Virus record (IMG/VR): IMGVR_UViG_3300043466_003618
Location: 1 to 33,841 of that record
Direction: 5' to 3' (one strand)
DNA length: 33,841 bases
DNA from: a virus
Every line of letters begins with the position of its first letter. The stretch's first letter is position 1. Shown piece after piece: positions 1 to 13,274 of the stretch. Made by a program: the position numbers and the translations under genes. A model generated the notes under the pieces. That model did not search any database. It was given only the letters and a program-made list of their open reading frames with translations, and was not told the origin of the DNA.

Positions 1-3000
1 GCATCGTCGAGCATGCGCATATCAGCCATGTCGATTTCGTATCTTTGCATATTAGGCGAGTCGGCGTCTGGGCCAAGTTCTTCGTCATAAATTGCAGAAA
101 GAGTTTTACGGCCACTGGCACCTGTTAAGTCTAGTGCTTCATAAAGCGCTTCAGCTGGGACAAGCTCATTGCCGTCACCAAAATTAAGAGATCCAAATCC
201 GCTGGCTTCTTCTCCATTGACTGGGACTACAGCTTCTTTAAGCGCGAAAATAAGTTCAGACGGGCTGAATCTGTTAGAAAGAACTGACGGATCGTCTGTG
301 TACTCAAGGCTATTGTCTTCTTGACGACCTTTTGGCTCATACACATCGAAAATGTTTGGCTTGTACGCACCGTCCGGCGCTTCAAACATGTCGTCAAACA
401 TTTCTTTTGCTGGATCAATATTAGTTAAACCGTCTGTTGGCTCTGATTCTGGCGCTACTCTGCCAGCGCGAATGTCTTGAAGTTCAGTATCGTACTTTTT
501 AATTAAATCTGCAATTTGACCAGAGCTAATGCGCTCGCCTGTAGCAGGGTCTTCGTAGTCTCTACCAAAGGGTACGTTATAGAGTTCGTCAAGCGCCATA
601 CGAACTTCAATTTCGCGGTCTGACGCATCGTCGTAGATATCTTTAAACGACTCAAACTTACCGGGGTCGGTTTCGCGAAGATTTGCAAAAGGATTTGCGG
701 GTGGAGTTGGGCCGCCTGTCGGTGGCTCGCCTTCTGATGCATTATCTGTTGTATTTATTCTATCGGAGCGGAGAATCAGCTCCTGGCCTGTCATGTCTTT
801 TCCGACGACTAGTGTAACTCCGTCAAACTTAGAAGGTACTACACGCTCTGGCTCAAAGATAAGTGGCTCTCCGTCGTAGTTAATTTTTACACGCTTGTCA
901 GGAGAAAAATTATTTACCCATGAGTCAAGTATTACTTTGTCCGGATTTGGAAAGCCCGTCCAGTTTTTTGGCTCTTCGTACCATGACTTAACTTCACCGA
1001 TAAGCGCTGAAACAATTCCTTCAACAGAAGAGTCAGAAGTCATCGGATCTGCTAAATTATCTAGCGCAGGTAAGACACTATTTTTATCTTGTTGGCTTAT
1101 GTTTCCACTGCTTATTTCTTCATCAAGAATATTTTTAATTATTTCTACAACTTTTTTTCTATCTCTAAAGTCTACGTTAGCCAGTCTTCCTAGCTGAGTA
1201 AGAGCAGAGAATATTTTAGAATCTTTGCGGCCAATTTCTGCAGCCGGATTTTGCAAATTAGACAGTTTTTTGTCAAGAAGCTCTGTTAGCTGATTAATTG
1301 AATAAACTGCATTGTTTAATTCTTCTTTAGACATCGCAGTGTTTCTATACTGGAAAACTGCATTATTGTACGACTGAAGCCATGACGCGTCATCTGCCGT
1401 CAGATTTCCTCGCTCGCGCTCAAATTCAATGACAGCGCTTAATCTTTCAAACTGAGTATATTGATTGTCATTATCTGGATTAGCACCTTTTATTTTGCCG
1501 TCAATAACATACTGTGCTTCTTTTCTAATGTCAGCAGCAATATTGCCAGTTGACTCGTAAGGCCCGCCTTCAACAGGCGTTTTACTTACGCCAGTTTGAA
1601 CAAACCCTTCTTTGTCAAGTTTTGCAGTCCCTACCTTAAGAGAAATAATGTGCTGCTCTGGTGGCTCGCCTGGGCCTTCTGTTGGTGCTGATGGGCCGCC
1701 GGTTGGTGGCTCGCCGATGCGCTCGTCGTACAGCTCTGGGTCTCGGTTTTTAATGTACTCGGCAAACTTTTCACGCAGACGATCTGAGTTTTCAGAATAA
1801 AGTTCTGCAAAGAAATCTCTTCTTGCATCGTCTACTCTAGCCTTGTCATCTTCGTTTCTTACGTCGTCGTCAATTCCATTGTCGTTTAAGTACTCTCTAA
1901 AGTTTTGTTCAGAGGTATCAACACTATCTTCTAAAAACCTTTCAAGATTGAAAAGGTCATCATCTTTTACAAATTCAGAAAACAGCTCATCAATGTTACT
2001 ATCGCGAGATGGGGCGCCTGTTGGTGGTTCGGCTGGCTCGGCGGGGGCACCTGTGCCTTCGTCTACAACAATGGTATCGTAGACTTCTTGACCAAACTCG
2101 CTTCTAATAAACTCGGCAAACTCACGAGGAGAGTCATAGTCTTCAGACGACTGAGTGTCAATTAGTTCTCCGTCAGAGTCTACTATTCTAATTCCAAACT
2201 CTGGGTCATCATTTGTCCACTCAAGAGTGACTGGCTCTCCGTTGTAGGTAGCCTCTTGACTAAAGTCAGTGCTATAGAATTGTGGAGAGTCTCCTGGGCC
2301 ACCGGTTGGTGCAGTTGGGCCGCCGGTTGGTGGCTCGCCTGGGCCGAAGTCGCCTTCTGCGTAATCGCTTATGTTCTCCGAAACATACGTCATAGCATTG
2401 TTGCGTTCTTGCAGAGAGATTTCGTCGTTGCTGTACATTTCATTGAGTGCTTGCTCAAAATCGTCAAAACCAATACCACGGTCTTCGTCTGCCATTACGT
2501 TGGAAAGACGCTTCATCAGTGAGTTGCGCTTTGCAGTGCTATTCTCTAGACCAAGTAAATCGCGAGCATAGATGTCATCTACGAGTGCTTCTGTGTCGTC
2601 AAAACCAAGAGAATCGCCTCCGTCTGGGCCGCCGGTTGGTGGCTCGCCGGGACCGCCGGTTGGTGGCTCGTCTGGGGCGCCGGTTGGTGGCTCGATTTTG
2701 TCAAGAGTAAAGTTTTTTTCTGCGCCGTCAGCTTCTCTAGCGGTAAGGTTTGTTTTTTCAGTTTTAGGGTTACGCCACACGCGAAGCGGGGTAACGTTTC
2801 GCTCTTTTCCACTGTAATTAAATCGAACGTTTAAGCCATCGGCTACCGCATCTGTGATTTGCTGCACCAGATTTTCGTTTGGGTCAAGAGCAAGTGCCTC
2901 TGGCGCTTTGGCGGCTTTTTTAGTAGGCTGCTCTGACTTTTTATTTGGAGGAAAAATTTTATCCGATGTAAAAGTACGTTTTTCACCATTTTCATCAAGA

Positions 3001-4178
3001 CCAACAATATTATCTTTTTTGGTCTTAGGATTAAAATACGTTTCTGTAGGCGTAATTTCGCGATCTTTTCCATTATAGCTAAACCGAAGCTTTTGCTTTG
3101 CTACACGAGCGGCATTAGCTTGGCCAGCTACGTTAAGACCTTCGGCAATGTCACGAACATCTGAAAGATTTTCGATTTCTCCGGCATTTACTGCATCACG
3201 TAGCTGAGAAAGAGTTTCTTTCCTTGCGTCTGTAAACTGCTGACGAATTTGTTTTGCTTGTTCACCAGTAATTTCTTTCCTAGTCGGTGGGCCATCTGGC
3301 TCATCGTACTCTTTCCAGTTGCCTTTTGAAGTCCTGTATCCGCCTTTAGGGATTGCAGCCGGGACAGTTTTCCAAACTCCACCGGCGTATCGTTCATCAG
3401 ATTCCGCCTGCGCGATTTTGGCGATTTCATCGTCTGTCAACGAGCCGTAATCAATGCCAGCTTTACGCGCGGCTTCGAGTCTTTCTTTTGTTCTTTTTTG
3501 AGAATCTGCAGCGGAGGCTCCCGGCGCGCTAGGTTTTTCGGCAGTATTCGCTGCCTCAAGAACTTTTTCATAGTCATCTTGGTCATCGAGGGCGGCTTTT
3601 TGTACGTCTGCCCAGGAGTTCCCACGAGCGACTTCTTCGCCAATTGAGTTGTCACTAAGATCTGCACGGTGAAGTGTAAAAGTATCGCCGTCTTTTTTAG
3701 CAAAGTATCCGTCTTCTGAAGTCCAGATTTCTGGCTCGCCCTCAGGAGTTACCTGCTTTGTCCAGCCTGTAGGCTGCTCCATTCGCTTAAGATCTGCCGC
3801 GTTAATGGCAAGACGCTCGGACGCGCGAACGTCAGCATCTGGAAGATCCTTTAGAGCGTCCTCGGGAAGAATAGCGGCTACAGAATCGCCTTTATTTGAT
3901 GGCAGTGCGTAGATACCGTCTGGAATACGGTCATTACCTTTTACTTCAATTTCAACATCTTCAGTTCCAGATGCGCCTACAACACGACCAGACAGCTTGC
4001 GAACTCCATCCGGAAAGCGGATATTGAACATGAATCCGCCGCCCTGAAAGGCAAATCGACCTCTGCGGTCACGACGCTGAAGTTTCGCGCGCATTGATCG
4101 CGCGGCCTTCGAGTTACCACCGAGGCCAAAGCCTAACGCAGCAATAATTGGGTCGAAATCGTTGTTTTCTTCGTTCAC
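1..4178 (-). CDS. Giant multidomain virion-associated protein A, C-terminus beyond the window
   Basis: Open without a stop from a GTG at 4178 to the left edge, giving more than 1,390 residues. I do not recognise a named family for the whole protein. Residues 24-75 contain a basic NSKAARSMRAKLQRRDRRGRF segment followed by a beta-rich module that matches the N-terminus of the neighbouring giant protein (4289..9064), so the two are paralogues at this end. Three segments at about residues 350-410, 446-495 and 1091-1141 share a pattern (R/K-F/I-x-Y-x-G-K/E, then x-P, a turn, then a F/L-x-x-D-K/R-I end) that resembles WYL/Sm-like beta-barrel domains. Domains are joined by Pro-Gly linkers of the type EPPTGGP, at about residues 496-516, 611-631, 711-723, 823-843 and 1148-1160. 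Position after portal and head genes suggests a capsid-associated or injected protein (inference). The start lacks a strong ribosome-binding site. Confidence 0.85.
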   Translation of the reverse strand, partial: MNEENNDFDPIIAALGFGLGGNSKAARSMRAKLQRRDRRGRFAFQGGGFMFNIRFPDGVRKLSGRVVGASGTEDVEIEVKGNDRIPDGIYALPSNKGDSVAAILPEDALKDLPDADVRASERLAINAADLKRMEQPTGWTKQVTPEGEPEIWTSEDGYFAKKDGDTFTLHRADLSDNSIGEEVARGNSWADVQKAALDDQDDYEKVLEAANTAEKPSAPGASAADSQKRTKERLEAARKAGIDYGSLTDDEIAKIAQAESDERYAGGVWKTVPAAIPKGGYRTSKGNWKEYDEPDGPPTRKEITGEQAKQIRQQFTDARKETLSQLRDAVNAGEIENLSDVRDIAEGLNVAGQANAARVAKQKLRFSYNGKDREITPTETYFNPKTKKDNIVGLDENGEKRTFTSDKIFPPNKKSEQPTKKAAKAPEALALDPNENLVQQITDAVADGLNVRFNYSGKERNVTPLRVWRNPKTEKTNLTAREADGAEKNFTLDKIEPPTGAPDEPPTGGPGEPPTGGPDGGDSLGFDDTEALVDDIYARDLLGLENSTAKRNSLMKRLSNVMADEDRGIGFDDFEQALNEMYSNDEISLQERNNAMTYVSENISDYAEGDFGPGEPPTGGPTAPTGGPGDSPQFYSTDFSQEATYNGEPVTLEWTNDDPEFGIRIVDSDGELIDTQSSEDYDSPREFAEFIRSEFGQEVYDTIVVDEGTGAPAEPAEPPTGAPSRDSNIDELFSEFVKDDDLFNLERFLEDSVDTSEQNFREYLNDNGIDDDVRNEDDKARVDDARRDFFAELYSENSDRLREKFAEYIKNRDPELYDERIGEPPTGGPSAPTEGPGEPPEQHIISLKVGTAKLDKEGFVQTGVSKTPVEGGPYESTGNIAADIRKEAQYVIDGKIKGANPDNDNQYTQFERLSAVIEFERERGNLTADDASWLQSYNNAVFQYRNTAMSKEELNNAVYSINQLTELLDKKLSNLQNPAAEIGRKDSKIFSALTQLGRLANVDFRDRKKVVEIIKNILDEEISSGNISQQDKNSVLPALDNLADPMTSDSSVEGIVSALIGEVKSWYEEPKNWTGFPNPDKVILDSWVNNFSPDKRVKINYDGEPLIFEPERVVPSKFDGVTLVVGKDMTGQELILRSDRINTTDNASEGEPPTGGPTPPANPFANLRETDPGKFESFKDIYDDASDREIEVRMALDELYNVPFGRDYEDPATGERISSGQIADLIKKYDTELQDIRAGRVAPESEPTDGLTNIDPAKEMFDDMFEAPDGAYKPNIFDVYEPKGRQEDNSLEYTDDPSVLSNRFSPSELIFALKEAVVPVNGEEASGFGSLNFGDGNELVPAEALYEALDLTGASGRKTLSAIYDEELGPDADSPNMQRYEIDMADMRMLDD

Positions 4179-4288: not shown

Positions 4289-7200
4289 CTATGTAACAGA
4301 TTGCTGCTGTTGAGCGGCTCTGGTCTCTTGTGTTTCTGCACTGTATAGCGAGCGGTCGCGACCGACAGTTAGTCTCATGATCTGATTTATGCTCAAATTG
4401 GAAAGAAAATCTGGTGTAAAAAACCTTTCAATATTTTGAGACACCTGCGCATCTTGGTCTCCAGCTCTGTCAAGAAGAGACGAATTTGTCCCCATGTGAA
4501 TTTGATTTGTTATTCCTAAATCGACTGAAATTCTTTGTAATAAAGCGTTAAATGCCGCCCTGCGTGCGTCGGTATTGCTAATTTCCATAATTCCTTCTTC
4601 AAAAATAATTGGCTTTATTTCATCTCCCTGTGCGCCGTAGGAGCCAAGTCTTGCAAGTTCGCGGATCGCTTCCGAAACTTGCTCTCTTGCAGAGACAATA
4701 TCTGTAGCATTACTTATTGTTTTGTACGACCCGGCAGGGAATTTTAGTACTCCACCAGCTTCAGGTGTAAAAAATGTATCTTCTGCAAGAATGTTATCGA
4801 TCGAGCCTGGATTTGCTTCTAATAAGGCGCGAAGTGGAATAATAGCTATGTGACTGTTAGGAGGCCAGCCTCGCTCTTTAATAGGGTCAACAACGTGATT
4901 GAGAGCTGTATGAATTGTGTGACGAGGTACAAATATTTCTGTACCGTCTTCAAGAGTTGTTGGGTACGCAGACGCTGGCTTAAGTGCAATGTTGCCTTCA
5001 TCGTCAATAGGGAACGCGTACTCAGTTTGATGAACCACATACAAATCATCAATAGAGCCACCTAAAATACGTTCTGCTGCCTTTTGATCTTTTTCTGATA
5101 CTAAACCCTTGGCTATTTGCTCCTTAAGATTGGTTTCACTTTTCGGTTCAATGTCCTTGAGTGCAGCCTGTCTTTCACTTCGTATTTTTTCTACTTTTTC
5201 TTTACCAATTTCAGCCAGTTCTTCGAGTCGCGCCAAAGACGCTTCGTCTCCGCGAGCACCAGCGTACAAAAGCGCGTCAACTTCACTTGTAGATTTATAG
5301 CCTGTGCCGTCATTGCTGCTTAATGCTGATCTAGCGTACGCCCACTTAAGCGCGAGCTCTTTTCCTTCTTTACTGCCCATTTCTACGCCTGCGATTTTAT
5401 ACGGGTTAATAGGCACTATTTCTACGTCATCCATGTCTTCGCCGTACTTTACTACGTTGCGATCTTTTTCCATACCAAAGTGTATTTTTTTACCGCCAAT
5501 ATTCCACACTTGCCCAATAGCGGCATTGACCGGGTTTTCTAGTTCTGCTTTAGCTTTTTCTAACTCGTAATCACTAGGTACAAAACTCATGGAAGCTTCT
5601 TTTTCAAGACTCACTGAATTGTTTGGGAGTCTATCGGCACTCTGAGCTGGCTCAGGTTCTGGTGACAAAGAACCATCTGAAGAAAATTTCTCTTCACCCT
5701 TTGTCCGATTCTTTCTGGCACTAATGGCACGGTCAAGCTCTTCTTTGATTACATCTAGGCCAAATTCTTTTCCATCTCTTGTTTCGCCAAATGTTCCAGC
5801 GTTTTCTTTGAGTGTTCCTTTTCCACTTTTATCAAATTGAGTAATTTTTGCTCTTAGGTACGCCTCGTACGGGGTTGTCTCTGGCTCGTCTTTTGGTATT
5901 AACACTTCGCGTGGTATATCTCCAAATATTTCGTCGTACCTGTCGAGCCATGCTGAAGTCATAGATGAATTAAAGAGTTCTACATTTTCTGGGTGCAGAT
6001 ATTCAAGAGCACCCATTTGTCCGTTTGCTCCACGAGGTTCACCTATTTGCGCAACAAGCTCTGTCCCTCTTGAATCAAGAATTTCGTCTCGTGTTCTTGC
6101 AAAGTCAAAAATTACGCTTAGATTCCCATAAAAATCTGGATTCATTCCCTGCGGAACATCGCCTATTTCTCTTCTTGTTTGACCAATGTCTGCAATGTAC
6201 ACTGCCCTCACTTCGCTCGGGTCAAATGTTCCGAGGGTCGCCGTTTCGTTATATTTGTCGTTATACTTAAATGACGGGTCAAGAGGCCCAGCTATGGAGG
6301 CACCCGAATCGCCTGTCATCGACGAAAAGAGCATTCCAATTGGGTCTGCATATGCAATTCCTGCTTCATCGATTGATTCCAAGTCGGCAACAGCTGCGCC
6401 AGATGAACCGAATCTTGTTACCGCGTCGCCATTGACTACCTTTGTTCTTTCGTTTACCGCGTCACTCAGTACGATATGGCTTCTGCCGTATTTTGCTGTT
6501 TGTGACAAATCTGCAACGTCGGAACCGATGGGGAAGTCATACATGGTTACAAAGTCTTCACCATATATTTTTTTCATTCTCTTCTCTCTTGCAAGATAAG
6601 AGTCTTTTGGAAGAGAGTGGCCAGAAATAGGCCTCATTGCTGTTATTGCTTTATCTTCAGGTGTGTTTTCCCCGGTGAATGGTAGGCCATACATTGTCTC
6701 CACTTTTCTACGAGCAGTAATCGTAATACTGTCGCCCATCGACGTTGTTCCAGAAAGATTGTCTAACTTTCTTTCGTCGCTATCGTGGACTGTCACTCCA
6801 CCAGCTCCCCTGATTATTCTTTTCACATCCGGAGTCTGAATAATAGGGCTTCCCATGTTTTTACCAAAATCAACGCTTGCTTTTCTAATAAGTTCTTCAA
6901 GTTTTTCATCGGAAGCATTGTCTATGTCTCCCATAAACTTAATGAAATCGTCAATTTTTTTTACAAGCTCTGTATCATTTTGTGACAAAGCAATTTCTTT
7001 TGCTGCAGCAACTCTCCAACCGATTGGGAGCTGCCGATTTCCAAACGCCCACTGCCTTAACCCTTCATCTTTGGGGTCAGTAAAGAGAATTGCTTCGCGC
7101 ATTCCTTTTAGACTTATTTTTCCGTCAGCGTAGTCATTAAATATTTTCTTTATATTGTCAGAAAGTTCCGGAATATCAGTTAGTCCTAACTCTTTACTCT

Positions 7201-9064
7201 TTCTTAATGTTTTTACAGATGAATTTATTTGCCGGTCAATTTCTTCTTTTGATGTTCCAACAGTCTTGCCTTGCCATTTAATTCCAAGAGCAGAAGCTTC
7301 ATCAAGTATTTCTTTAGAACTTTTTGCTGTTTTTTCTTTTTCTGCAGACTGCGTCTTGGGCCCTGACACAATCTTACCGCCATCCCATGTATTAACAACT
7401 TCGCCGTCTCTAACTGGGACTACACGTATGCCAACACTTTCAAGCATTTTACTAATTGACTCAAATTGTTCTTCTGAAACTTTATGTGTCGCCCATGGTT
7501 GCCGTTCCCCAACATTAACTACGACATAGTCAACGTCACTAAGACTAACTCCACCGTGTACTTGTGCTTCTGCGTAAATTGCCATTGGGTTTCCGACTGC
7601 TCCAGACGCGTCCTTGCTGGGTACACCCATTGGTGACGGCACTAAGCCGGAGCCAAGACTGTTCTGTGTCGTGTATGTTGCACGTGAATGCGCATCTTTT
7701 TTAAGAACAAATTGCAACTCTCCGTACATTTGAACTGCATCAAAGTTTTCATCGTCTATAACTCCACCTTTAGTCAGGTAGCCGTAGACTGGACGTGTTT
7801 CTGGCGCATTGCGCGGATGATAGCCAAACTGAGCTATATCACCTTGCATTCTCCCTTGAGTGTACAGTGTACCGCCAGAAGTGTTTGTTTCAAACTGTGT
7901 CTTAAATCTTCCATCAGTTATTAGTTTTTCAAGAACCTCCAGAGGAAAAGCAATAGCAATATCTGCTTTTTCAAGTACTTCTGCAGAGTTTTGAAGTCTT
8001 AGTTCATCGCTATAAATATCTTGTCCGCCGTCTTTAATTGCACGAGCGTTATTTACCACCAATTTGTGTCGGTAGTCTAATGGTCGTGTGATAGCTTCAA
8101 CAATATCTGCCACTTCTTGTTCTGTAAACGCTGACTCTTCGCCATCCTTGGCAGCCGTGTAGTCTTCTTTTATGGCCTCACTTAACTCGTTCCACTGAGA
8201 CTCAGTAACAATTAGCGAGTCATTGAATTCATTAAGAATTGCATTTTCTTCAGAAGTATACGTGCCTTTACTGGCCTCTTTTTCTTTTACTCTGTCAAAA
8301 AGCTCTTTATGTTTTTGTAGTAACTCACGGGCTTTCTTATACCCGCCGTCTGTGCTCTGGACAATAGAATCATAAGCCGCTTGCGTTCTTTTAGGCATTG
8401 TTCCTGGACGCAAAATAGACAGTGGACGACCAGTAGCTTTTGCTTCTTTAAGACTGTCTGTCGGCTGAAGTTGCGTAGACGTTGCCCTGTCAGAACTGCG
8501 AGCGTTGGTGTCTTGGCTAGCAGCTGGTGCCGGTGTATCTCTTTTTTCGTAATCAGCAGTTGCTTTTTGAATGTCCGCCCACGACTCGCCACGAACAATT
8601 TCATTTGCAGGATTGCCTGCGCTATCGGTGTCATACGCTACATACGAGTCAGCAAATTGGCGAACAACTAAACCGTCTTCAGAAGACCATTCCTTAGGTT
8701 CACCGTCCGCAGTATTTCTCGGAGTCCACCCGCTGGGTTGGGCTGCTACTTGTACAGTACTGATATCAATTTCGTCTTCTTTTGCAATACTTTTTTTAAT
8801 ATTTCCAGTTTTTACGTTGGTACCTTCAAGATTAAGAATAGCTTTTGCAGCAGTGCCTTTTTGTGATGGCGCAGAATAAATACCATCAGGCACTCCTGCA
8901 ACGCCACGCATTTCAACTTCAATTAAGTCTTCACCAGACTGCCCAACAACTCTCCCGGCTGCTGAAACGCGGCCACCGGAAGAAAGTTTAAAGTTAAAAG
9001 AAAATCCTCCACCCATTTCTGCAAATCGTCCGAGACGATCGCGGCGCTGCATGCGAGCGCGCAA
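4289..9064 (-). CDS. Giant multidomain virion-associated protein B (duplicated enzyme-like modules); probably expressed by -1 frameshift from 9130..9678
   Basis: A 1,591-codon frame read from a TTG at 9064, the only near-standard start codon between the preceding in-frame stop and ATG 9052. The start is doubtful: homology to giant protein A (NSRAEKS-LRARMQRRD here, NSKAARS-MRAKLQRRD there) continues at least seven residues upstream of the TTG, and there is no good ribosome-binding site. A -1 frameshift at 9136-9142 would add this upstream part in frame. Residues 24-75 repeat the N-terminal module of protein A. Residues about 360-520 and 760-960 share a motif order: R..E..YG, RPV/I-Y/S-G-Y/H-L, YG-x-x-Q/H-F/I-VL, x-R-A/T, a GD or NS segment, and Y-x-E followed by a VV strand. 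This resembles DUF3626/ADP-ribosyltransferase-like proteins, though I am unsure of the family. A third module at about 1335-1480 (YVVHQTE, PRHTIHTALNHVV) is also enzyme-like. Probably a virion-packaged effector or head protein (inference). Confidence 0.85.
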   Translation of the reverse strand: MRARMQRRDRLGRFAEMGGGFSFNFKLSSGGRVSAAGRVVGQSGEDLIEVEMRGVAGVPDGIYSAPSQKGTAAKAILNLEGTNVKTGNIKKSIAKEDEIDISTVQVAAQPSGWTPRNTADGEPKEWSSEDGLVVRQFADSYVAYDTDSAGNPANEIVRGESWADIQKATADYEKRDTPAPAASQDTNARSSDRATSTQLQPTDSLKEAKATGRPLSILRPGTMPKRTQAAYDSIVQSTDGGYKKARELLQKHKELFDRVKEKEASKGTYTSEENAILNEFNDSLIVTESQWNELSEAIKEDYTAAKDGEESAFTEQEVADIVEAITRPLDYRHKLVVNNARAIKDGGQDIYSDELRLQNSAEVLEKADIAIAFPLEVLEKLITDGRFKTQFETNTSGGTLYTQGRMQGDIAQFGYHPRNAPETRPVYGYLTKGGVIDDENFDAVQMYGELQFVLKKDAHSRATYTTQNSLGSGLVPSPMGVPSKDASGAVGNPMAIYAEAQVHGGVSLSDVDYVVVNVGERQPWATHKVSEEQFESISKMLESVGIRVVPVRDGEVVNTWDGGKIVSGPKTQSAEKEKTAKSSKEILDEASALGIKWQGKTVGTSKEEIDRQINSSVKTLRKSKELGLTDIPELSDNIKKIFNDYADGKISLKGMREAILFTDPKDEGLRQWAFGNRQLPIGWRVAAAKEIALSQNDTELVKKIDDFIKFMGDIDNASDEKLEELIRKASVDFGKNMGSPIIQTPDVKRIIRGAGGVTVHDSDERKLDNLSGTTSMGDSITITARRKVETMYGLPFTGENTPEDKAITAMRPISGHSLPKDSYLAREKRMKKIYGEDFVTMYDFPIGSDVADLSQTAKYGRSHIVLSDAVNERTKVVNGDAVTRFGSSGAAVADLESIDEAGIAYADPIGMLFSSMTGDSGASIAGPLDPSFKYNDKYNETATLGTFDPSEVRAVYIADIGQTRREIGDVPQGMNPDFYGNLSVIFDFARTRDEILDSRGTELVAQIGEPRGANGQMGALEYLHPENVELFNSSMTSAWLDRYDEIFGDIPREVLIPKDEPETTPYEAYLRAKITQFDKSGKGTLKENAGTFGETRDGKEFGLDVIKEELDRAISARKNRTKGEEKFSSDGSLSPEPEPAQSADRLPNNSVSLEKEASMSFVPSDYELEKAKAELENPVNAAIGQVWNIGGKKIHFGMEKDRNVVKYGEDMDDVEIVPINPYKIAGVEMGSKEGKELALKWAYARSALSSNDGTGYKSTSEVDALLYAGARGDEASLARLEELAEIGKEKVEKIRSERQAALKDIEPKSETNLKEQIAKGLVSEKDQKAAERILGGSIDDLYVVHQTEYAFPIDDEGNIALKPASAYPTTLEDGTEIFVPRHTIHTALNHVVDPIKERGWPPNSHIAIIPLRALLEANPGSIDNILAEDTFFTPEAGGVLKFPAGSYKTISNATDIVSAREQVSEAIRELARLGSYGAQGDEIKPIIFEEGIMEISNTDARRAAFNALLQRISVDLGITNQIHMGTNSSLLDRAGDQDAQVSQNIERFFTPDFLSNLSINQIMRLTVGRDRSLYSAETQETRAAQQQQSVT

Positions 9065-9112
9065 CGATTTTTCTGCGCGGCTATTGCCTGAAGCTATGTG
9101 TGGACGAAGGAC

Positions 9113-9142
9113 GCGGCCCTTGCGAGCCGCTACTCTTTTGGG
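9113..9142 (-). promoter_or_regulatory. Candidate programmed -1 ribosomal frameshift site
   Basis: On the minus strand the end of the 9130..9678 frame reads TAC CCA AAA GAG TAG. The heptamer C CCA AAA (9136-9142) fits the X XXY YYZ slippery rule. After a 5-nt spacer (GAGTA) comes GCGGCTC-GCAA-GGGCCGC (9113-9130), a 7-bp stem with one U-G pair closed by a GNRA tetraloop. A -1 slip enters exactly the frame of the 1,591-codon ORF with no stop in between, giving ...NYPK-RVAARKGRVLRPHIASGNSRAEKS-LRARMQRRD.... Spacing and geometry match known frameshift signals. Expression itself is inferred. Confidence 0.7.
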
Positions 9143-9678
9143 TAGTTATCGTCTTCGTATTGAATCGGGTCAACAGATGCTGTTAAAGGCGCGGCACTAG
9201 GGCCAAGGGCGGACAAACGAGCAAACGCATGAGCGCGCTCAGTTGAACCAGGCGTTGCCGTGTGGGCGCGAATGACAAGTTCACGCGCAGATGGGTCAAC
9301 TAAAGGATCGGCGGCTGTCCACTGCGCTTGAGCGTGACGTAGTGCAGATGCTGTCATCGCGTGCGGGCGAGCAGAGTTGGGGTGACCGACAGGCAAAAGA
9401 TCTGCGTTGCTCAGCGCCATCGTTGACTCTTTATTGCGAGACGCTAATGACATGTACGAAGATACTGCTTTAATTGCAGAAAAAATACGTGCGCTTGGCT
9501 CGCTATCACGTGTTTTACGCAAGTCGCGGTTTGCTACTTCAATTGCGGTAGCAAACGGTACACGGCGCTCTGCCTGTAGGTAAAGATTTGACCGCTCTAG
9601 TAAAGCAAGAATTTCAGAACGAAGTTGCTGAGTATGCTGCTTTGTAAACGTTTTTCTCGTAATTTTCTTTTTCTTCAT
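9130..9678 (-). CDS. Head-associated protein, probable upstream partner of a frameshift fusion
   Basis: 182 residues from ATG 9678, 6 nt after the stop of 9685..9936. Starts with a Lys-rich segment (MKKKKITRKTFTKQHTQQ), then helical sequence, then DLLPVGHPNSARPHAMTASAL, a motif shared with 9933..10976 (DLLPKAHPKS...MTASAL). The C-terminus is APLTASVDPIQYEDDNYPKE. No named family recognised. Its stop lies five codon positions from a slippery heptamer, so a fraction of ribosomes may extend it into the giant protein at 4289..9064. Its place between portal-proximal genes and the giant proteins suggests a head-assembly or scaffold-like role (inference). Confidence 0.85.
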   Translation of the reverse strand: MKKKKITRKTFTKQHTQQLRSEILALLERSNLYLQAERRVPFATAIEVANRDLRKTRDSEPSARIFSAIKAVSSYMSLASRNKESTMALSNADLLPVGHPNSARPHAMTASALRHAQAQWTAADPLVDPSARELVIRAHTATPGSTERAHAFARLSALGPSAAPLTASVDPIQYEDDNYPKE

Positions 9679-9684
9679 GTCCGT

Positions 9685-9936
9685 TTAGCTTTCTGCTTTT
9701 TCAACAAATTTACGTGAGTTAGCTACTGCGGTAGACTTGCCTTCGGCTTTTCTTTCTACTTCTGGCGCTGGCTCCCAGTACCCATGAGAAAGCGCGATGT
9801 CAACATCAACCTCTAGTTTTGCCTTCGAGTTACTTTTAGAAATATAACCCATTCTTTTGGTAAAGCTTTCATTTGACGTGTCGTGCGTGTAAAAAAGTTT
9901 GTCATTTCCGCGTATTGCTATTAGTTTTTCTTTCAC
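9685..9936 (-). CDS. Small hypothetical protein in the head gene cluster
   Basis: 83 residues from a GTG that overlaps the stop of 9933..10976 in the arrangement GTGA, so translation is probably coupled. Charged and soluble, with no membrane segment or recognised motif. The sequence ends in a Lys/Glu-rich tail (VERKAEGKS, FVEKAES). Location between two head-associated genes suggests a structural or assembly role, but the sequence itself does not show one. Confidence 0.8.
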   Translation of the reverse strand: MKEKLIAIRGNDKLFYTHDTSNESFTKRMGYISKSNSKAKLEVDVDIALSHGYWEPAPEVERKAEGKSTAVANSRKFVEKAES

Positions 9937-10976
9937 GCGTCTGACGCCTTTTTACGAGGAAGAAGATCAGTATCTTTGTCGTTTTTATAGAGATTTATTG
10001 CAAGAGATTTTGCACGCTCAAAAGGATCTTCTCGGTTGTCTACGCCACGCATCCATGCGGCACGGAAAGCCGGAACTGTTTCATAGCCAAGACCGCTGTA
10101 TTCTGCAAACGCTACGATTGCGTGTTCGGGCGATTGGTAATCGTTCTCTTCTTTCAGCGCGATGATTAGTTCACTATCTGCCAGAGCGGACGCTGTCATT
10201 GACTCTGCTGAGTTTGTTGACTTTGGATGTGCTTTTGGAAGAAGATCATTGTCTTGCTTATAGTTTGGATTTGTTGGTCGTCCGGACTTAAGAAGCTTGA
10301 GGTACGCATTAACGCGAGCCATTGCCCATTGGTCACGAGTTTTGCCGGGACGGTGCGAGCTTGAAAACGCGCCAGAGCCGCGACGATACACAGCCTTTAG
10401 CTGACCTAAAGTTGCTTTACGGCCAGCCGGTGCTTTTTCATTATGCTCTTTAACTTTATTTTTGAGCGCTGTTTCTACTTTTTTTGAAAAAACAATCTTT
10501 TTTCCGCCGGCGGCAGAACCTGGTTTGTTTTTCTTTGAGCCGTAGATGCGATCTTTTTTCGGAGCTCTACGAGAAGCCGCGGCAGCAACTGCATCTGGTT
10601 GGCGCTGAACTTCTTCTTGAGCTTCGACAGGCTTTGCAGCTTCTTCTTTTCTTTTTACTTTAATTGCAGAAGTAACAATGCCGTCAGGGATTAAAGCAAA
10701 ACGGCAATAACCTTCTGGTTCAACTTCATCATAAATAATTTTGCAAATAGTCCCGCCGGCGTAAAGAATGCAGTTTTCGCATTTAACGCCAATATCTTTA
10801 TTTTCATTTTGTTCGGGTGGCTCGTAGCCAACCCAAACGCCGGTATCATCATCGTTAAACTTGCCGTACTTTTTTGCAATAGCAACTAAGGCATCGGCAA
10901 GCTCTTGTTCTTCAGGAACAATGGCAGAAGCAAGCATAGTCTCTACTTCTCTTTGCGCTCGCGTTTTCTTTAACAT
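9933..10976 (-). CDS. Head-associated protein with Cys cluster and DUF5824-like domain
   Basis: 347 residues from ATG 10976 with GGTAGG upstream. Residues about 65-92 hold a four-Cys cluster (CENC, TIC, GYC) that could bind metal. A basic, Ala-rich linker follows (about 105-165). Residues about 185-240 (RKATLGQLKAVYRRGSGAFS...DQWAMARVNAYLKLL) match my recollection of the phage DUF5824 domain. Then comes DLLPKAHPKS...MTASAL, shared with 9130..9678, and a helical C-terminal domain with FRAAWMRGVD, ending in DLLPRKKASDA. DUF5824-type proteins sit near portal genes in other phages, so a head maturation or scaffold role is likely but not proved. The end overlaps the next gene (GTGA). Confidence 0.85.
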   Translation of the reverse strand: MLKKTRAQREVETMLASAIVPEEQELADALVAIAKKYGKFNDDDTGVWVGYEPPEQNENKDIGVKCENCILYAGGTICKIIYDEVEPEGYCRFALIPDGIVTSAIKVKRKEEAAKPVEAQEEVQRQPDAVAAAASRRAPKKDRIYGSKKNKPGSAAGGKKIVFSKKVETALKNKVKEHNEKAPAGRKATLGQLKAVYRRGSGAFSSSHRPGKTRDQWAMARVNAYLKLLKSGRPTNPNYKQDNDLLPKAHPKSTNSAESMTASALADSELIIALKEENDYQSPEHAIVAFAEYSGLGYETVPAFRAAWMRGVDNREDPFERAKSLAINLYKNDKDTDLLPRKKASDA

Positions 10977-11003: not shown

Positions 11004-11501
11004 TTAATGAAACATTGAGTCGACGGGGGTAAGATGCGCGCGAAGCATCCATGCCCACTTATGATGCATATCAATTCGCCCTGCAATAAAATCAGCAATG
11101 CCTTGTTGGTTTGCCGCATCGGCTGCTGCAAAACTTTCTTTAAGGCAGTCAAGCATTATTTCGTTTGCAGCAAAAAGATCGTGGCACATGCTCATTGGAT
11201 TACAACCGCATTCCATGTCTTCAATACTTGTCAACGCGGCAAATTCTGCCAAACGGTATGGAGCAAGAGCACTGAGCTTGCGAAGATTTTCTGCAAGTGG
11301 GTCAATTGATCCGTACACATCACTGTAAATTTCGCCAAAGAACTCGTGGTATTGAGTAAAGTCTGGGCCCATAACATTCCAGTGATGTCCTTGAGCTTTA
11401 AAAGCAAGAACTACTGCGTTGCCGAGACACTCTGCAAGCGATTCAGCGACAGCTGGGTCACCAACACCGTATCCGATTGGGTTTATTTCTTCTTTGTACA
11501 T
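11004..11501 (-). CDS. Dps-like ferritin (DNA-binding/iron-storage type)
   Basis: 165 residues from ATG 11501, preceded by AAGGA. Residues 36-71 carry the Dps ferroxidase pattern: the HHWNV motif (His39-His40-Trp41), FTQYHEFFGEIY with His52, and D67-x-x-x-E71 in SIDPLAE. The C-terminal helix IDMHHKWAWMLRAHL is also typical. Dps proteins form 12-mers that oxidise and store iron and can shield DNA from peroxide. Here the gene sits between the portal and head-associated genes rather than among the small accessory genes, so the protein may be packaged or made late. A Cys-rich insert (ECGCNPMSMC) at about 97-106 is unusual. Confidence 0.93.
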   Translation of the reverse strand: MYKEEINPIGYGVGDPAVAESLAECLGNAVVLAFKAQGHHWNVMGPDFTQYHEFFGEIYSDVYGSIDPLAENLRKLSALAPYRLAEFAALTSIEDMECGCNPMSMCHDLFAANEIMLDCLKESFAAADAANQQGIADFIAGRIDMHHKWAWMLRAHLTPVDSMFH

Positions 11502-11510
11502 AAGTTATCC

Positions 11511-13274
11511 TTACTGTTCGGTCGGCGCTGGTGGCGCTGTTTCTTCTGTTGCTGGCTCAAGCAATCCAGTTGGCGCAGAGGCAGGTTCTGATTCTCCAGC
11601 AGGTTGTGCCATCGGCGGCATTCCAGGAGGACCGCCTTGAAGCATTTGCTGAAGTTCTGGGGGCATTGGCGCTACGCTATTTGCTTGTTGTGCGTTTCTT
11701 GTAGACGCCATAAGGTCTGGAGCAATTGCACCAATGACTGCTTCTGTAAGTTCTGGAGTAATTGCGCCTTTTTCAATAATCATACGAAGTGCAACTTCTT
11801 CTGGGCTTGGCGCATCAGCGTCGCTAAATCCGTGAATTCGTCGCCACGTGTCAAAGCTAACTGCCATTTTCTGAAAGCCAGACTCAGCGTCTGCAGCTTT
11901 GTCATTGCGAGTAGCAACTGCTGACGGATCGTACCAAATAACGACACGATCAACTTCAGCCTCGGGAAAACCGTTTGCAATGAGATACGGACGCAAGTAC
12001 ACAATTGTAAGCGCGTCTGCAATAAGCAGCATTAATGGCTCAATGTGCGACTTGTATAGTGACTCGTCGATTTGCATTGCATTGCTGTATTTAACATTCG
12101 CAAGACCAGTAACAACATCTTTTGGGACATCCAAACCTTGCAAAATTCTTTCAAGCACACGATCAGACCGAGCAGCAAGTGCCGGGTCAAATGAACGCTC
12201 AAATTTGAACTGCTTGATTTTGTCACCAAGCTCAGCAGGTCCGCGAATAATCAAAGGAACAACAGCACTAGCAGAGTCTTCATCGCGAATTGGAGTTGTC
12301 ATCGCATCAATGAGCGCGTCCTCGAACTCATCTGCAGCTTCCTCTGGTGTAAACCCGGGGTCAAGATCTGTTTCATCATCGTACGGATAGTTCGGATCTG
12401 GAGACGCCGCAACGCTAAGACCATCAGGAAGATAGAGCGCGCCAGCGTTCAGACGGGAACGCGCCGTTGCACGGAATGTGCGGTTTAGCAAAAGAAGTTC
12501 TGCGCAAAGATCTAAAAGACCGCGCAGGGACGAATCCGCTTCGTCAGAAAATCTTGGATGAGCACGCCAGATACGACCAACAAAAGCGTTGTCTGGTAGA
12601 GGAATAATACCTTTGTTAACTTTGCTACTGCTTGATGCTCCGGCGTTTTGCCCGGGCAGGTAGTCTCTTCGAGCAACAATGCCGTATTTGTTTTTGCTGT
12701 CAATTTGAACTTCGTCTACAGAGCGAACGTCCCATGATTCTGGGATACCAGAACCAATACGGGCTGGCATCTGCACTAGATAACACTCACCTGTTACTGA
12801 GAGGTTTAGAGCGGCATCTCGTAATAAACCAGCCTGACCGCCATAGGCAGAATCAAGACGTGATAGAGCCCTTTCTGCGGCCGCTCCAAGCCGTGCATCA
12901 ATGTTGCTTGCATTACGCACAGGCACGGGGGTTTCAGCCGGGTTATCAATAACTGCTGCATATAAACGAATACGCGAAACTATAGAAGCTACGAGGTTAA
13001 ACGCATACTTAACTTCGCCAATCGCATCGTAGTACTCCCAAGCTTCTCCCTGCCATGCAGAGGAAGTTGACTGTCTACGATTCTTAAAATACTCAGCTTC
13101 GCCCTTGTCGTTCATGCGAACCTGAGCTGCCGCCGCGGTCAAAGCACGAGGAGCAGAAAATGGCGCTGATTCCGCAAATGTGAATCCAGCAGGCAAAACC
13201 TGCTGTACAACACGCGACGGCGGTGTAGCCGTTCTCCGTGTCGGTGGTACTTGTTCTCGGCGGAATACGCCCAC
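11511..13274 (-). CDS. Phage portal protein
   Basis: 587 residues from a GTG at 13274, with AGGAG six bases upstream. The order and character fit actinophage portals: a Pro/Ala-rich N-terminus ending in LTAAAAQVRMNDKGEAEYF, a tryptophan-rich block (WQGEAWEYYDAIGEVKYAFNLVASIVSRIRLYAA), a long middle with GECYLVQMP and WRAHPRFSDEADSSLRGLLDLCAELLLLNRT, and a Gly/Pro/Gln-rich C-terminal tail. The portal forms the ring through which DNA enters and leaves the capsid and to which terminase docks. The identification rests on overall pattern and gene context. Confidence 0.88.
   Translation of the reverse strand: MGVFRREQVPPTRRTATPPSRVVQQVLPAGFTFAESAPFSAPRALTAAAAQVRMNDKGEAEYFKNRRQSTSSAWQGEAWEYYDAIGEVKYAFNLVASIVSRIRLYAAVIDNPAETPVPVRNASNIDARLGAAAERALSRLDSAYGGQAGLLRDAALNLSVTGECYLVQMPARIGSGIPESWDVRSVDEVQIDSKNKYGIVARRDYLPGQNAGASSSSKVNKGIIPLPDNAFVGRIWRAHPRFSDEADSSLRGLLDLCAELLLLNRTFRATARSRLNAGALYLPDGLSVAASPDPNYPYDDETDLDPGFTPEEAADEFEDALIDAMTTPIRDEDSASAVVPLIIRGPAELGDKIKQFKFERSFDPALAARSDRVLERILQGLDVPKDVVTGLANVKYSNAMQIDESLYKSHIEPLMLLIADALTIVYLRPYLIANGFPEAEVDRVVIWYDPSAVATRNDKAADAESGFQKMAVSFDTWRRIHGFSDADAPSPEEVALRMIIEKGAITPELTEAVIGAIAPDLMASTRNAQQANSVAPMPPELQQMLQGGPPGMPPMAQPAGESEPASAPTGLLEPATEETAPPAPTEQ

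Follow-up and report, generated by a model that had tools for sequence, protein, structure and literature searches.

A candidate −1 frameshift signal between a portal-proximal protein and a giant protein in uncultured phages

Known frameshift systems and the locus studied

In tail assembly chaperone genes of the lambda G/GT type, a −1 slip on an XXXYYYZ heptamer shortly before a stop codon yields a short and a long product, and this arrangement is widespread in phages of actinobacteria. The locus analysed here shares this layout, with the same kind of heptamer just before a stop and a predicted short and long product. The chaperone pair precedes the tape measure gene, whereas the gene studied here lies between the portal and two giant frames, and its extension runs to about 1600 residues. 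No chaperone homology was found for this gene pair and the locus lies downstream of the portal, so we did not class it with the tail chaperones.

Frameshifting by −1 also extends head proteins in phages A2, T3/T7, A118/A500 and PSA (PMC5009743). As appears to hold at the present locus, some phages encode the added domain in frame and others gain it by slippage; in the published cases an abundant major capsid or tail protein gains a small, often Ig-like domain, whereas here a small anchor-like domain would gain a giant multidomain protein. An earlier note on this DNA, made from the sequence alone, had called a −1 shift in a head-proximal giant protein unusual. A giant protein as the extension does seem new, but frameshifted head proteins were already established (PMC5009743). 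Fusions of MuF-like and VIP2 ADP-ribosyltransferase domains, which occur in Microbacterium phages (PMC7302621), likewise attach a portal-proximal protein to an enzyme domain in some genomes, and for MuF-like and VIP2 genes that lie out of frame a frameshift link was put forward as a possibility in the PRFect paper (PMC10885494). There the link by frameshift was only suggested, whereas here the signal itself is identified and backed by relatives; the two regions joined here, D and G, had no convincing match in Pfam, PHROGs or NCBIfam, and no MuF domain was found in either with profiles from these collections, so that any relation to MuF would be remote. Polyvalent phage proteins are giant, modular and fast-changing, are encoded beside head genes and are thought to be packaged and injected (PMC5512222). 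Giant size, module variation and location near head genes are also seen here. Polyvalent proteins are multidomain, whereas few domains were recognised in the present giants (DUF3626 as the only one in giant B, and an HExxH-type motif in the giant of the relative L024). The class of mechanism is known; what seems to be new, judged by the open-access papers searched, is a signal of this class serving a giant protein, probably delivered with the virion, at two paralogous junctions.

The window, meaning the whole stretch of 33,841 nucleotides that was analysed, is a 33.8-kb IMG/VR virus record (IMGVR_UViG_3300043466_003618) with its head genes on the minus strand in the order terminase, collagen-like fibre gene, portal, ferritin-like protein, DUF5824 protein (U), D and two giant frames (Table 1). 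IMG/VR was searched with D, U and G profiles, which gave about 250 loci; the window phage and its relatives are uncultured phages whose host is probably actinobacterial. Among annotated phage records, D was found only in Actinomycetia phage DSL-LC01, as the N-terminus of a single 3289-aa protein, and a D-profile scan of bacterial and archaeal genome contigs found no relatives. The ferritin/Dps-like and DUF5824 proteins, separate genes in the window, form one ORF in L005, L026, L047, L083 and others, and the head region therefore appears to shuffle fusions freely.

Table 1. Positions of the head-region genes and signal elements in the window
Feature	Position	Strand	Remarks
Portal	11511-13274		
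Ferritin/Dps-like protein	11004-11501		separate gene in the window
DUF5824 protein (U)	9933..10976	-	paralogue of D
ORF D	9130..9678	-	182 aa, 0-frame product, ends ...DDNYPKE*
Slippery heptamer C CCA AAA	9142-9136	-	0 frame of D
Spacer GAGTA, 5 nt	9135-9131	-	ends in the TA of the TAG stop (9132-9130)
Stem-loop	9130-9113	-	stem GCGGCTC 9130-9124, loop GCAA 9123-9120, stem GGGCCGC 9119-9113
Giant B, -1 frame, stop to stop	4289..9145	-	1618 codons
G domain of giant B	8815..9100	-	SGNSRAEKSLRARMQRRDRLGRFAEMGGGFSF..., helix + SH3-like barrel; approximate bounds
First conventional starts in giant B frame	9050..9064	-	TTG 9064, ATG 9052; inside conserved G domain
Giant A	3..4178	-	cut by contig end; own GTG start; its G domain is orthologous to that of the D-fused giant in sister phages L024/L025

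The signal at the end of D

The heptamer, 5-nt spacer and 7-bp stem that had been described at 9113-9142 were all found there on the minus strand. The 3' end of D reads ...GAT AAC TAC CCA AAA GAG TAG, so only GAG stands between heptamer and stop, slightly closer than the four codons stated earlier. The stem-loop, of 7 bp with a 4-nt loop, has a predicted stability of about −14 kcal/mol, equalled by 1.8% of shuffled sequences; Rfam gave no match at the site. A TAA closes the −1 frame right before the slip site (TAA CTA CCC AAA AGA) and leaves an overlap with D of only five codons. Slippage is thereby confined to these five codons, and one good site falls among them. From the heptamer onwards the −1 frame enters giant B with no stop, as the earlier note had said. 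The site thus has the features of a canonical −1 signal: an in-frame XXXYYYZ, a structure about 5–9 nt downstream, a −1 frame open into a conserved coding region, and retention in split relatives (few sequences).

The closest comparison is with L002, in which D is 91% identical to that of the window and the DNA is about 85% identical. The heptamer, the spacer and all 14 stem bases are identical in the two, while the loop has changed at two of its four positions and the 3' flank has diverged. The longest stretch that window and L002 share without change lies in another part of D, so that conservation of the site falls short of extreme. When the RNA element was compared in three sequences, covariation was slight, consisting of one double change, a level reached by shuffles in 168 of 500 cases. 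The loop had been described as a GNRA tetraloop; GCAA is indeed present in the window, but the loop varies in relatives (GTAC, TAGC) while the stem is kept, and we rejected the GNRA loop as an important feature. We also excluded an intrinsic terminator, as a T run follows none of the three hairpins found (0/3).

The start codons of giant B were then considered in relation to the G domain. Predicted ribosome-binding energies were −2.5 kcal/mol at TTG 9064 and +0.7 kcal/mol at ATG 9052, compared with mostly −4 to −10 for the other genes. Neither start has a convincing ribosome-binding site, and the G domain shared by these giants begins upstream of TTG 9064. L002 has an ATG at the position of this TTG. 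From the slip site to the TTG, 6 of the 10 codons that differ between window and L002 are synonymous in the −1 frame, and beyond the hairpin the changes were synonymous in 5 of 8 in the −1 frame versus 0 in the other two frames, in what is a small sample. Mostly synonymous changes are as expected if the stretch upstream of the TTG is translated in the frame of the giant. Giant B has 1618 codons in the window and 679 in L002, with both ends the same, and it is modular in that the far shorter version keeps the same two ends.

The frequency of such signals was assessed at 1086 unique ORF ends in all fetched loci. An in-frame XXXYYYZ lay in the last 60 nt of 49 of them, and 25 of these 49 had an open −1 frame. 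Only 3 of the 25 were followed, at a suitable distance, by a hairpin more stable than −10 kcal/mol (−14.5, −13.7 and −11.7; next best −6.2), and these were the ends in the window, L002 and L024; the loci had been gathered by homology to these genes, so that the background is local and not global. The exact heptamer and stem pattern was also searched across IMG/VR, in a collection from which the window's own record may be absent. Twelve contigs matched, with the gene arrangement present only in L002 and two L024-type contigs; the nine other matches were set aside, their gene arrangement not being comparable. A DNA pattern built from the end of the DUF5824 protein matched 8 contigs, none of which was L024 and none of which carried a strong-hairpin frameshift candidate in the scan of all loci.

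Other junctions were considered and set aside. At the DUF5824-to-D junctions of L005 (6952) and L076 (4454), AAAAAAG lies in frame and D is open in −1, with no strong hairpin and a lysine-rich protein end, and L005 has a plausible start of its own; these sites are possibly a weak frameshift linking DUF5824 to D, or possibly a chance product of the lysine-rich end. The portal-to-G junctions of L001 (9300), L071 (3322) and L089 (3873) are in a −1 relation but have no slippery site near the stop. At each of the three, the G giant begins two bases beyond the stop codon of the portal gene (TAGCCGTG), an arrangement that suggests coupled translation.

Fusion of D and G in relatives and a second junction

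The giants have a common N-terminal domain, G, of the form GGNSxAARSxRAxLQRRDRxGRFAxMGGGFSF.... Of 148 distinct G domains, 121 are preceded by D and 3 by U in a continuous frame. The remaining 24 fit neither pattern and include both split D junctions, that of L024 and giants that have start codons of their own. A split of D and G at the D junction was present only in the window and L002, against the 121 distinct in-frame sequences. Since nearly all relatives encode D and G in one frame, the in-frame D–G fusion is, as judged from these genes, the ordinary product, and the frame break in the window is the exception. The structure of D plus G was predicted well (pLDDT 85), and it matched no known fold at E ≤ 0.001, with only weak SH3-like matches for G. 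In Arthrobacter phage Mimi, gene 77 (L020, 2227-10356) places the start of a G domain on a giant annotated as a DNA helicase, which suggests that G heads very different giant enzymes.

In the D tree, the window and L002 nest inside the in-frame group, beside L024, L025 and L077, which indicates that the fused form is ancestral and the split, putatively frameshifted form derived. The G tree, which has few columns and merits moderate trust, puts the window's giant A in one group with the giants that are fused to D in L024 and L025; on the same few columns and with the same moderate trust, it places the frameshift-joined module of L024 with L025, L055, DSL-LC01 and L071, apart from giant B of the window. 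Trees and gene order together suggest an ancestral pairing of D with giant A that was later separated by giant B.

A second junction of the same kind was found in L024, between the DUF5824 protein and a giant. U ends there with GAT CTT CTC CCA AAA TAG CA ACGGCCT-TAGC-GGGCCGT, and the −1 frame at this end opens a 679-codon G giant. The heptamer, spacer, stem length and loop length are those of the window, and three stem pairs differ yet stay paired, one of them by a double change. The same junction recurs in another assembly, L056, with no difference in the segment that was compared. The frame of this giant has no ATG, GTG or TTG until the M of AEMGGG, which follows QRRDRYGKFAE and lies past the conserved QRRDRxGRFA core. 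Without slippage, the L024 giant would lose the most conserved part of G, because there is no earlier ordinary start. HHalign shows U to be a homologue of D (probability 95%, E 2e-8), and in L055 the same DUF5824 protein is fused to G in one frame. The signal either arose twice or moved between the D and U junctions. The linkers at both junctions are similar (PK-x-A-x-x-GR), and this likeness makes common descent of the two junctions possible. The frameshift-joined giant of L024 (2086-4122) carries an HETSH motif, of the HExxH type typical of zinc metalloproteases, and has no Pfam match.

These results support the frameshift joining D to a giant that the earlier note had proposed, through the in-frame fusions in relatives, the heptamer and stem kept in L002 and the second instance in L024; the note's description of D as a head protein is best read as putative. 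The conservation that the note had named as a check was found in L002 and also at the paralogous L024 junction, and no relative was found in which the heptamer is lost while D and G remain in different frames at the D junction.

Proposed mechanism, alternatives and significance

We infer that programmed −1 frameshifting, very probably, yields both D alone and a D–G–giant B fusion. Most ribosomes would stop at the TAG of D and release the 182-residue protein, and some would slip one base back at C CCA AAA, with the stem-loop 5 nt ahead, and continue through ...NYPK-RVAARKGR... into giant B, giving a predicted product of D residues 1–181 plus 1615 residues, about 1796 in all. Free D would be made in excess over the giant, and the signal would tie D to giant B out of frame after the insertion of giant B before giant A. 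The C_CC.A_AA.R class is among the efficient motifs in E. coli (PMC4066793); the host here is probably actinobacterial and the rate may differ. The split D form was found in two related phages and the DUF5824 form in one.

It is improbable that giant B is a separate gene, started independently or by reinitiation after the stop of D, at TTG 9064 or ATG 9052 (the TTG being ATG in L002). Free-standing G giants with their own starts do exist (giant A and those of Microbacterium phages), so G does not always depend on D, and in DSL-LC01 the GTG of a G giant lies two bases past the portal stop; the earlier note had counted separately started giants in relatives as evidence against a frameshift, but the ones found are G giants unattached to D. 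In the window, at least 64 nt and a stable hairpin separate the stop of D from the candidate starts. These have weak ribosome-binding energy, and their use would remove the conserved GNSxAxxS beginning of the G domain and leave the heptamer and hairpin unexplained. Independent initiation, the main alternative, is weakened by these start positions and binding energies and above all by L024, in which, under the same arrangement, a product begun at the first usable start would lack the conserved core.

We consider it most unlikely that a frameshift mutation or an assembly error broke a fused gene and that the slippery appearance is accidental. A frame was lost at some time, as the in-frame fusion is ancestral, but two phages about 15% apart in bases share the split and show constraint at the protein level in both frames, the L024 case occurs in two assemblies, and a heptamer and hairpin at all directly out-of-frame junctions would be very unlikely by chance. 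There is equally little probability that the stem-loop is a translation attenuator or an RNA-processing site instead of a frameshift stimulator; a strong hairpin at a stop codon could act in this way, but the in-frame heptamer, the fixed 5-nt spacing and the open −1 frame at both types of junction would go unexplained.

D lies next to the portal and is fused to giants in relatives, which suggests that it may act as an anchor or packaging part that takes the giant into the virion; if so, and if programmed frameshifting operates here, the slip rate would set the number of giants per virion. The paralogous case suggests that phages can attach and detach giant modules through a short RNA signal. 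More tentatively, and less likely than not, the heptamer, spacer and hairpin could be a portable joint that links variable G giants to a D or DUF5824 anchor and keeps the dose of injected giant low and fixed against that of free anchor; in other phages the same links are made in frame. Were this true, frameshifting would dose virion cargo, rather than tail chaperones or coat variants. With the fused form standard in relatives and the frameshifted form apparently derived, the locus offers a natural comparison of one fusion made in two ways. Because the search for frameshifting in tailed phages has centred on tail chaperones, annotation pipelines split genes of this kind when they lie elsewhere.

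The same heptamer was observed at the end of a capsid maturation protease gene in Gordonia phage Sixama (MN484601.1, about 41159-41596; L022, 11660-12097) and in Forza (MK814760.1; L276, 3340-3860), where the gene ends C CCA AAA GAC CRC TAA. A CCGCAG...CTGCGG stem follows, and reading on in the −1 frame gives a basic tail that is conserved (PKRPLTA..RKVKSAAGA.RY.QPIG.VITNKS...). Gene 85 of Forza is annotated in another frame, and Boopy, BlueNGold and Mareelih match the same stretch. This protease end is likely an unannotated −1 frameshift.
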